DNA of 64,000 nt from Pseudomonas fluorescens (GTDB taxonomy: Bacteria; Pseudomonadota; Gammaproteobacteria; Pseudomonadales; Pseudomonadaceae), in contig NZ_CABVIY010000001.1 in the NCBI RefSeq assembly GCF_902498195.1, forward strand, positions 744,001 to 808,000, written 5' to 3'. The notes under the pieces were generated by a model. That model did no database searches, was not told the origin of the DNA, and saw only the letters and a list, made by a program, of their open reading frames with translations. The position numbers and the translations under genes were made by a program. Shown one piece after another: positions 46,270 to 48,548 of the stretch. The stretch's first letter is position 1. Every line of letters begins with the position of its first letter.

Positions 46270-46773
46270 TTAGCTCTCGCCGTCAAAGGCTCGTTGCAGT
46301 TCGGCGATATTGAGTTTTTTCATCTGCATCATCGCCGCCATAGCGCGCTGGGATTTGTGCGTGTCGGGGTCCTTGAGCATCTCCATCATCGCCACCGGCA
46401 CGATCTGCCACGACACGCCGAACTTGTCCTTGAGCCAGCCACACTGCTGCGCTTCCAACGGCCCGCCGGCGGACAGCCGCCCCCAGAAGTGGTCGACTTC
46501 TTCCTGGGTCTGGCAATTGACCTGAAACGAAATCGCTTCATTGAAGGTGAAGTTCGGGCCGCCGTTCAGGCCGGTGAAACTCTGCCCGTCGAGTTCGAAG
46601 CTGACCGTCAGCACCGAGCCTTCCGCGTGGCCGTGGATCTCCTGGCCAGCCTTGCCATAGTGGGTGATGGCGGTGATTTTGGCGTGATCGAAGATCGCGC
46701 AGTAGAACTTCGCGGCCTCTTCGGCCTGACCGTCGAACCACAGGCAGGGTGTGAGTTTTTGAACGTGTAGCAT
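46270..46773 (-). CDS. PhnB-like VOC-superfamily protein
   Basis: 167 residues. A glyoxalase/bleomycin-resistance fold of the PhnB type: LTPCLWFDGQAEEAAKFYCAIF, FNEAISFQVNCQTQEEVDHFW and DKFGVSWQIVPVAMMEML. Function of the family is undefined; often annotated as 3-demethylubiquinone-9 3-methyltransferase-like, which is not an experimental assignment. Follows the AraC gene's start with a 33-bp gap; both are leftward. Confidence 0.87.
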   Translation of the reverse strand: MLHVQKLTPCLWFDGQAEEAAKFYCAIFDHAKITAITHYGKAGQEIHGHAEGSVLTVSFELDGQSFTGLNGGPNFTFNEAISFQVNCQTQEEVDHFWGRLSAGGPLEAQQCGWLKDKFGVSWQIVPVAMMEMLKDPDTHKSQRAMAAMMQMKKLNIAELQRAFDGES

Positions 46774-46876
46774 GGCGGGTCTCCCTGGCAGGTTTTTGCA
46801 ATGCTGGACTATCAGCGTAGACAGCCTGCGCTCGCCCGGTTGTGCCGTAGATCGCCAAAGCGCTCTTTGCTCTTTT

Positions 46877-46975
46877 TGTGGGCGCGAGACTGCTCGCGAA
46901 AAACCTGAGGCCAGCGAGGTGATTCAGGTGCCCCGCGTCATCGTTGGCCGCCATCGCGAGCAGCCTCGCTCCTAC
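46877..46975. repeat. REP pair upstream of the ppyR promoter
   Basis: TGTGGGCGCGAGACTGCTCG arm at 46877 and inverted GAGCAGCCTCGCTCCTACA ending at 46975, more diverged than the other pairs. It ends 13 bases before the first NorR-like site. Confidence 0.8.
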
Positions 46976-46988
46976 AGGGTCTCGATTA

Positions 46989-47045
46989 GTCAGTATGACT
47001 GCTTAATAGGTCGTAATGACTATTTCGTTGAGGAGTCGTTTTGAC
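46989..47045. promoter_or_regulatory. Three NorR-like enhancer sites (GTCR-N3-TGAC)
   Basis: GTCA-GTA-TGAC at 46989-46999, GTCG-TAA-TGAC at 47010-47020 and GTCG-TTT-TGAC at 47035-47045. The NorR recognition core is GT-N7-AC, commonly GTCA-N3-TGAC, and norVW in E. coli is known to need three such sites. Spacings here are 21 and 25 bp, about two helical turns each. No norR or fhpR gene is in the window, so the activator would be encoded elsewhere. Confidence 0.7.
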
Positions 47046-47056
47046 ATCTGCCATCT

Positions 47057-47069
47057 CAAGTGCTTGATT
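47057..47069 (-). promoter_or_regulatory. IHF-binding site between enhancer and promoter
   Basis: On the minus strand, AATCAA-GCAC-TTG fits the IHF consensus WATCAA-N4-TTR at every fixed position. It lies between the three NorR-like sites and the -24/-12 element, where IHF bending usually brings enhancer-bound activator to the polymerase. Confidence 0.6.
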
Positions 47070-47086
47070 CATAGCGTGCAAATATC

Positions 47087-47102
47087 TGGCACGAGACCTG
47101 CT
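47087..47102 (+). promoter_or_regulatory. Sigma-54 (-24/-12) promoter of ppyR-nnrS
   Basis: TGGCAC-GAGAC-CTGCT matches the -24/-12 consensus apart from T to C at the first base of TTGCT and G to A-side variation after TGGCACG. Predicted start near 47114, 29 bases before the ppyR ATG. Confidence 0.75.
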
Positions 47103-47142
47103 ACATCCCTCGTACAACTGAACTGCTACAGGAGTACGGAAA

Positions 47143-47391
47143 ATGTTCCATTTCTTCAGCAATCCTCAGAATGTTCTGCAACTGTCCAGCCGTGTACTCG
47201 GCGTCGGCCTGGCGATGCTGCTGGCCGGTATCTACGGTGCTTACCTCTACGACGGTCATCTGTCGATCGTCGCCCTGGTGGCGCTGCACGCCATGACCAT
47301 TGTCGGGCCGACCCTGCTGAAAATCGGCTACGTCATGCGCCTGCTGTCCCAGCACCGGTTGAGCAAACCCTTGGCCGGGGCGCTGGCCTGA
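47143..47391 (+). CDS. ppyR: PpyR-like small membrane protein
   Basis: 82 residues with two membrane helices (LGVGLAMLLAGIYGAYLY and VALVALHAMTIVGPTLLKIG), a short loop and a basic C-terminus. Size, opening MFHFFSNPQNVLQLSSR and position directly before nnrS match P. aeruginosa PpyR (PA2663), named as a membrane regulator of the psl and pyoverdine loci. Its stop overlaps the nnrS start (TGATG), so the two are coupled. Expression is predicted to be nitric-oxide-responsive from the upstream sites. Confidence 0.75.
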   Translation: MFHFFSNPQNVLQLSSRVLGVGLAMLLAGIYGAYLYDGHLSIVALVALHAMTIVGPTLLKIGYVMRLLSQHRLSKPLAGALA

Positions 47392-48548
47392 TGCGCAAAC
47401 TGGCCGCTGCCCCCGTCTTCAGCCTGGGCTTTCGCCCGTTCTTTCTGGCGGGCGCCGCATTCGCCCTGCTGGCGGTGGCGATCTGGGCCTTGTGGCTGTA
47501 CGGCCGCTTGCCCGGCGCGCAACCGGTGGGCGGCATGCTCGCCTGGCATCGACACGAAATGCCGTTCGGCTTCGCGGTGGCGATCATCGCCGGGTTCCTG
47601 CTGACGGCGGTGCCAAACTGGACCGGTCGACCGGGGCTCAAGGGTTGGCCGCTGATCGGGCTGGTGCTGGTCTGGCTGCTGGCGCGACTGGCCTGGTTGA
47701 TGCCGGCGTCCCCGGGTTTTTTGCTGGTGCTGCAGATGCCTTTTCTGCCGCTGCTGGCCGGGGTGCTGGGTCGCGACCTGATCGCGGCCGGCAAGCGCGA
47801 TAATTACCCGATCCTGTTGATGGTCGCGCTGTTGGCCGGTTGTCAGGCCATGACGCTGTGGGGCCTGTGGACCGACGATGTCGGCCTGCAACGGCGTGGC
47901 GTACTGGCAGCGCTGTGGCTGGTGGGCGCCATGATGAGTGTGATCGGCGGGCGGGTGATTCCGTTCTTCATCCAGCGTGGTTTGAACCGTCCGGCGCAGC
48001 CTGCGGCCAGCCCATGGCCGACGCGGATTCTGATGGTGAGTGGTTTGCTGGCCGCGCTGACCTTCGCCCTGGGCCTGGATGATGTTCCCAGGCTGTGGCT
48101 GGCGGCGCTGTTTGTGCTGATGGGCACTTTGCAGCTGGTGCGGTTGTGGCGCTGGCATGACCGGGGCCTGTGGCGCGTGCCGTTGTTGTGGTCGCTGTAC
48201 CTGTCCTACGTCTGGCTGGTGGTGGCGGTTTTTGCCATGGCCATGTGGCATGCGGGCTGGATGCCGCAACAAAGCCTGGCCACCCATTCGCTGGCGGTGG
48301 GCGGTGTGGGTGGGTTGATCCTGGCGATGATTGCGCGGGTCAGCCTGGGGCATACCGGACGGGCGTTGCAGCCTTCGAAAGCGATTGTCGCCGGTTTTGC
48401 CCTGGTGCTGCTGGCAGGGCTGTCGCGGGTGTTGCTGGTGCCGTTTTCCGGGCTTGGGCTGGCGCTGTCGGCGCTGCTCTGGTGTTGTGCGTTCGGGCTG
48501 TTTCTCCTGCGCTACAGCGATATTTTGTTGAAACCGAGGGCCTTGTAG
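47391..48548 (+). CDS. nnrS: NnrS family haem-copper membrane protein
   Basis: 385 residues, about twelve membrane helices. NnrS signatures: FSLGFRPFFLAGAAFALLAV at the start, AWHRHEMPFGFAVAIIAGFLLTAVPNWTG, GGRVIPFFIQRGL and THSLAVGGVGGLILAMIARVSLGHTGR; the conserved His residues in these blocks bind haem and copper. NnrS relieves nitrosative stress by limiting iron-nitrosyl formation. The ATG at 47391 overlaps the ppyR stop. Confidence 0.93.
   Translation: MRKLAAAPVFSLGFRPFFLAGAAFALLAVAIWALWLYGRLPGAQPVGGMLAWHRHEMPFGFAVAIIAGFLLTAVPNWTGRPGLKGWPLIGLVLVWLLARLAWLMPASPGFLLVLQMPFLPLLAGVLGRDLIAAGKRDNYPILLMVALLAGCQAMTLWGLWTDDVGLQRRGVLAALWLVGAMMSVIGGRVIPFFIQRGLNRPAQPAASPWPTRILMVSGLLAALTFALGLDDVPRLWLAALFVLMGTLQLVRLWRWHDRGLWRVPLLWSLYLSYVWLVVAVFAMAMWHAGWMPQQSLATHSLAVGGVGGLILAMIARVSLGHTGRALQPSKAIVAGFALVLLAGLSRVLLVPFSGLGLALSALLWCCAFGLFLLRYSDILLKPRAL

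Follow-up and report, generated by a model that had tools for sequence, protein, structure and literature searches.

The window analysed here, a 64,000-nucleotide stretch of Pseudomonas fluorescens DNA, contains immediately ahead of ppyR what is in all likelihood (with a rough probability of 0.92) a NorR-dependent sigma-54 promoter, which would serve ppyR and, in this genome, nnrS as well. The elements involved are collected in Table 1. As the preliminary description had it, three GTC(A/G)-N3-TGAC sites, a perfect IHF site and a -24/-12 element follow one another in that order; the IHF consensus WATCAANNNNTTR is matched with zero mismatches, and TGGCACGAGACCTGCT departs from TGGCACGN4TTGCW at a single position. 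Forty bases separate the -24/-12 element from the ppyR ATG, and the position of the -12 half would place the start of transcription near 47113 (47114 had been suggested previously). The gene preceding the promoter (46270-46773) lies on the minus strand, and so runs in the opposite direction, while positions 46870-46980 hold a repeat, ending about 10 bases before NorR site 1, which judged by eye we take to be like the short REP elements of Pseudomonas.

Table 1 Predicted features of the ppyR control region and related loci. Numbers without a prefix are positions in the window.
Feature	Position	Strand	Remarks
NorR site 1 (predicted), GTCAGTATGAC	46989..46999	+	1.45 bits/column, 61 aligned relatives
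NorR site 2 (predicted), GTCGTAATGAC	47010..47020	+	step 21 from site 1; 1.42 bits/column
NorR site 3 (predicted), GTCGTTTTGAC	47035..47045	+	step 25 from site 2; 1.57 bits/column
IHF consensus site (predicted), CAAGTGCTTGATT as + strand letters	47057..47069	-	sequence, and conservation at a fixed offset
sigma-54 -24/-12 element (predicted), TGGCACGAGACCTGCT (TGGCACG-N4-CTGCT)	47087..47102	+	TGG 52 bases past start of site 3
Leader with AGGAG, GTACAACTGAA...CAGGAGTACG	47112..47142	+	predicted transcription start about 47113
ppyR, 82 residues	47143..47391	+	a membrane protein as judged by eye; Pfam family: none
nnrS	47391..48548	+	PF05940, 350.7 bits (cut-off 28)
NorR-type promoter and ppyR without nnrS, 23 loci	L022, L028, L032, L033, L035, L037, L043, L045, L049, L051, L055, L057-L059, L061-L067, L078, L079
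Glycine-zipper gene, with NorR-type promoter (predicted) in 13 of 22 loci read	L001:3039-3539 (G000:C1:105538-106038); loci L109-L130, L211

The way in which such a promoter would work can be sketched by analogy with E. coli, where, according to the sections covered of PMC2941729 (published work is cited throughout from such sections), NorR needs three enhancer sites, assembles as a hexamer on DNA and senses nitric oxide at the iron of its GAF domain. On this model NorR would occupy the three dyads upstream of ppyR, and IHF would bend the spacer so that the enhancer could reach RNA polymerase-sigma-54 at the -24/-12 element; binding of nitric oxide to the GAF-domain iron would then allow the hexamer on the three sites to hydrolyse ATP and open the promoter, and PpyR and NnrS would be made together with the flavohaemoglobin Fhp, whose promoter shares the layout. 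Given these properties of E. coli NorR, the ppyR promoter should be off without nitric oxide and on in its presence. The E. coli norR-norVW system likewise has a sigma-54 promoter preceded by three enhancer sites (PMC2941729), but there the target is norVW, whereas here it is ppyR-nnrS, with norR located on another contig.

It is necessary to consider how readily such an arrangement could arise as a chance cluster of a common short palindrome. Single sites are indeed common: GTCRNNNTGAC, expected 4.94 times in the window, occurs 11 times there (a number reached by 2 of 100 shuffles), and genome-wide there are 366 + 385 matches on the two strands, palindromic ones being counted double, so that one site alone is weak evidence. 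Pairs of sites separated by gaps of 5-35 bases are another matter, being confined to four places in a genome of 6.6 Mb (6 matches forward, 1 reverse, and 0 for a reversed-pattern control). These are the ppyR promoter, the norR-fhp region, the promoter of a glycine-zipper gene and one further place (G000:C2:277601) that was set aside as a probable chance occurrence, as the beginning of an open reading frame overlaps it and no TGGC occurs within 120 bases of its second site on the same strand. When a pair at step 25 is required together with TGGCA at an exact distance, a gap of 41 gives one perfect match (the ppyR promoter) and a gap of 42 gives one more (the glycine-zipper gene). If the combination of pair and TGGCA is loosened, the whole genome shows no excess over the reversed control (forward plus reverse matches 15 + 8 against 8 + 13, and 9 + 6 against 10 + 15). 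A search for -24/-12 elements with at most two mismatches returned 19 matches against 22.87 expected, the spacer in the search pattern being one base short, so that the element at 47087-47102 falls outside this test.

Further evidence comes from comparison with relatives. A search for PpyR covered 298 genomes of the genus and gave a match in 88, and the loci read comprised 87 of the 88 first copies (L107 having no ppyR match on re-searching) and 3 of 14 second copies. The full pattern, defined as three GT-N7-AC sites with steps of 17-23 and then 23-28 between them and TGGC 45-61 bases from site 3, is present directly upstream of ppyR in 63 of the 87 first-copy loci. Nearly all of the remaining 24 (21 of them) are accounted for by a different gene order, norR-fhp-ppyR, in which ppyR lies behind fhp with norR divergent; a three-site promoter with TGGC stands ahead of fhp in 18 of these 21, and in the other three the 260 bases scanned began near the -24 element, so that any NorR sites would fall outside the scan. 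Two more loci (L072 and L080) are each one letter short of the full pattern, and L083, which has neither the three-site pattern nor the norR-fhp order, resembles the second-copy type. In none of the three second-copy loci, one of them from the genome of the window, was the three-site plus TGGC pattern found. This second PpyR-like protein of the window genome (L048:5194-5451, in the region of G000:C1:398717-398950) is 49% identical and lies behind a pyridine-nucleotide oxidoreductase gene, a pairing seemingly repeated (by eye) in L083 and L106.

A second collection, consisting of the best 80 of 191 ppyR loci from public species genomes, gave a similar picture, although, as the two collections share genomes, their counts are not to be added. 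Three sites followed by TGGC occur upstream in 78 of these 80 loci, the exceptions being L150 (which keeps three sites but reads TGAC instead of TGGC) and L209 (a second copy, with no sites). Shuffled upstream regions gave the same pattern 0 times in 8000, and among 240 segments taken from elsewhere in these 80 loci it turned up once; in the light of these figures a chance cluster can be dismissed as wildly improbable. Absence of the sites from orthologous promoters, which the preliminary description would have counted against itself, was looked for and is not what was found: with few exceptions the full pattern precedes ppyR or, in the alternative gene order, a norR-fhp arrangement does. Control of the ppyR promoter by NorR and sigma-54 is thus very likely, as judged from these comparisons.

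The exact spacing of 21/25/52 is kept in 61 of the 78 species-genome promoters and in 48 of the 63 from the genus set. Across the 61 loci so spaced, conservation follows the elements: to the values given for the three sites in Table 1 may be added 1.46 bits per column for the -24/-12 element, 1.08 for the IHF stretch and 0.84 for the beginning of the leader, against 0.52 for the remainder of the spacer, 0.29 and 0.39 for the gaps between sites and 0.24 for the upstream flank. Of 78 promoters, 51 carry the IHF consensus at its offset with no more than one mismatch, where shuffled spacers would lead one to expect 0.3. As a separate observation, many close relatives keep the leader nearly invariant all the way between the predicted start site and the Shine-Dalgarno sequence. 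A possible hairpin (CGTAC/GTACG) around the latter was considered and rejected, since 44 of 53 leaders preserve the four-pair stem, where shuffling gives a mean of 44.5, and there is no covariation; as the stem is no commoner than in shuffled leaders, no RNA element is claimed.

A conserved TTGATT in the spacer bears on a different proposal, namely that it is half of an ANR/DNR box and that DNR, either alone or beside NorR, switches on ppyR-nnrS using a sigma-70 promoter. There is some precedent, in that Rodionov et al. 2005 (PMC1274295) predict that DNR controls nnrS and hmp in P. stutzeri, and a box within one mismatch does occur in the 300 bases before ppyR in 4 of the 60 loci listed (L048-L108), these being L056, L078 (where it is perfect), L092 and L104. 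In the upstream region of the window, however, the best match to TTGAT-N4-ATCAA has 3 mismatches, and only 2 of 78 species-genome spacers come within one mismatch of the box; moreover, the second half of the box is not conserved while both halves of the IHF consensus are, and the three dyads and the -24 element would be left unexplained. Control by DNR is accordingly regarded as very improbable, and NorR control remains the preferred reading.

One respect in which the promoter of the window is unrepresentative is its -12 element. The preliminary description had noted its closeness to the textbook form (one mismatch in TTGCT), which is correct for this genome but does not extend to its relatives: in the 78 species-genome promoters the -12 quartet is TTGA in 50, CTGA in 9, ATGA in 7, GTGA in 6, TTGG in 5 and CTGC in 1, so that 72 have NTGA, and among the 63 genus-set promoters CTGC appears once, in the window itself. 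The group of ppyR promoters therefore has a non-textbook -12 to which the ppyR promoter of the window is an exception, and the match to consensus is for this reason uninformative as to promoter strength. In 18 fhp promoters the corresponding quartets are NTGA in 9, NTGT in 8 and CTGC in 1.

As regards the activator, it had been suggested that a NorR-like protein would be encoded elsewhere, and this is borne out: the genome of the window encodes one protein above the NorR cut-off (772.7 bits against 476), on another contig at G000:C2:328674-330209, with GAF, Sigma54_activat and HTH_8 (Fis-type HTH) domains and the motif GAFTGA. Across the genus, NorR scores above the cut-off in 292 of 298 genomes. 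In the window genome norR adjoins fhp, and between them lies a three-site promoter with geometry 19/26/52, TGGCACGGAAACTGAT, and CTGA at -12. More generally, the Pseudomonas FhpR(NorR)-fhp promoter has the same dyads in the same order, TGG 52-53 bases past site 3 and mostly no GC at -12; it differs from the ppyR promoter in its steps (19-20 and 25-26 against 21 and 25) and in being divergent from norR. It was also seen that the norR-proximal site (L046:3218-3228; G000:C2:330217-330227) overlaps the norR start codon, and for that reason NorR might, when bound at this site, act as a repressor of norR.

It could be argued that the sites before ppyR bind some other sigma-54 activator and that the promoter is not controlled by nitric oxide at all, given that 24 further proteins in this genome match the NorR profile at scores below 476 bits. 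Against this, the same dyads in the same geometry lie between norR and fhp, both here and in relatives, while norR directly adjoins ppyR in L092 and a broken norR-like piece is present in L082; an activator other than NorR is for these reasons considered very unlikely. Given that relatives retain the three-site pad, ppyR and nnrS are instead very probably part of the nitric oxide defence.

The two genes are not, however, equal partners as targets of the promoter. In the window the start codon of nnrS overlaps the ppyR stop (TGATG), and nnrS adjoins ppyR behind 40 of the 63 NorR-type promoters, but behind the other 23 it is absent, with at least 1724 bases in view; in 17 of the 23 genomes concerned no NnrS match is found at E 0.001, and in the remaining 6 a match lies elsewhere. 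Of the 21 loci in which ppyR follows fhp, nnrS is present in 18 and absent from 3. For the best 80 of 191 species-genome loci the corresponding figures are 47 with nnrS next to ppyR and 33 without, the latter including L190 (where the sequence ends 287 bases past the ppyR start) and L209 (a second copy). In the genus as a whole, 159 of 298 genomes have an NnrS match, 156 of them above the cut-off. The idea that PpyR is an obligate partner of NnrS was consequently dropped. Likewise, the earlier designation of ppyR-nnrS as the promoter's target holds for ppyR, which is conserved in that role, and not for nnrS as a constant companion: the two genes do not form one unit of control, and it is ppyR for which the promoter appears to be kept. 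As many relatives retain a NorR promoter on ppyR alone, PpyR most likely contributes independently to nitric oxide tolerance. A part in tolerance is suggested by its promoter and, in other species, by the position of its gene after fhp; a separate task is suggested by the loci where ppyR lacks nnrS. The gene is named ppyR by similarity to PA2663. Among 16 aligned PpyR sequences the invariant residues include H49, G55, P56, K60 and G62-V64.

A candidate third target emerged from the pair search. The stretch C1:105538-105593 carries sites starting 150, 130 and 105 bases, and TGGCACG 52 bases (geometry 20/25/53), ahead of a gene for a protein of 116 residues, probably exported (judged by eye), with a weak match to the glycine-zipper family PF13441 (E 4.4e-05; 23.5 bits, under the 28.9 cut-off). 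Of 119 genus genomes, 17 yielded relatives. Among 22 loci read, 13 have three sites followed by TGGC (L115 with degenerate sites only), two (L111 and L126) have three GTC-type sites with altered spacing or -24, and 7 have none. In L111 sites 2 and 3 are, as counted by eye, 16 rather than 25 bases apart, which resembles the loss of nearly a full turn of the helix. G118 has the gene between norR and fhp, in the same direction as fhp; in G030 and G087 it is on stretches that also carry norR and, by eye, nos- and nor-like genes. On these grounds the glycine-zipper gene is a probable third target of NorR.

Parts of this picture have been anticipated: NorR control of nnrS and a link between PpyR and nitric oxide are already in print, and the type of switch is known. 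Rodionov et al. 2005 (PMC1274295) predicted that NorR controls nnrS in V. cholerae and P. aeruginosa and that tandem sites precede hmp and dnrN in P. stutzeri, the sections covered making no mention of ppyR or of a separate ppyR-nnrS promoter. In PMC9112911 ppyR is described as sharing an operon with PA2662, which encodes NnrS, downstream of fhp, and RNA from both ppyR and fhp is lower on surfaces; PA2662, PA2663 and PA2664 are listed together as changed in PMC13086522. Tomato exudate raises nnrS, nor genes and hmp in P. donghuensis, where nnrS is clustered with norR (PMC10256816), and nitric oxide induces hmp in P. fluorescens (PMC9414441). Two reports count against the proposal: a P. aeruginosa microarray with acidified nitrite places fhp and PA2662/PA2663 in different overlap groups (PMC6546240), and a term search of the P. 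fluorescens study just cited, in the text covered, finds neither ppyR nor nnrS. A description of a separate NorR-type ppyR promoter was not seen in the literature searched, most subscription papers lying outside that search.

What PpyR does once made is a further matter. It had been suggested that it is a signalling protein, passing information about nitric oxide to exopolysaccharide and pyoverdine genes. Such a tie would rest on a phenotype cited from P. aeruginosa, where a ppyR mutant reportedly forms less biofilm, and PMC9112911 quotes the idea of a membrane sensor acting through nitric oxide. The many relatives that hold ppyR under NorR without nnrS, implying as they do that PpyR has its own task, put slightly more weight on independent roles, signalling included, and leave the odds on NorR control unchanged. 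However, no Pfam domain was found in PpyR and the mutant phenotype may be indirect, so that signalling is rated as rather unlikely.

A wider reading, given about even odds, is that the NorR of fluorescens-type pseudomonads runs at least three separate promoters of the same geometry (fhp, ppyR with or without nnrS, and the glycine-zipper gene). PpyR would then be a conserved second target, independent of NnrS in many species, and a membrane protein of nitric oxide tolerance that is not mainly a regulator of polysaccharide or pyoverdine; together with the glycine-zipper protein it would make nitric oxide defence partly a matter of the cell envelope. The comparative evidence, which is strong, serves to place the little-understood PpyR in the nitric oxide defence of one branch of Pseudomonas, very probably at least, and NorR-type promoters persist on ppyR where NnrS is missing. 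Finally, the geometry 21/25/52 combined with NTGA at -12 provides a search key for more NorR targets, and the present analysis has yielded one candidate, the glycine-zipper protein.
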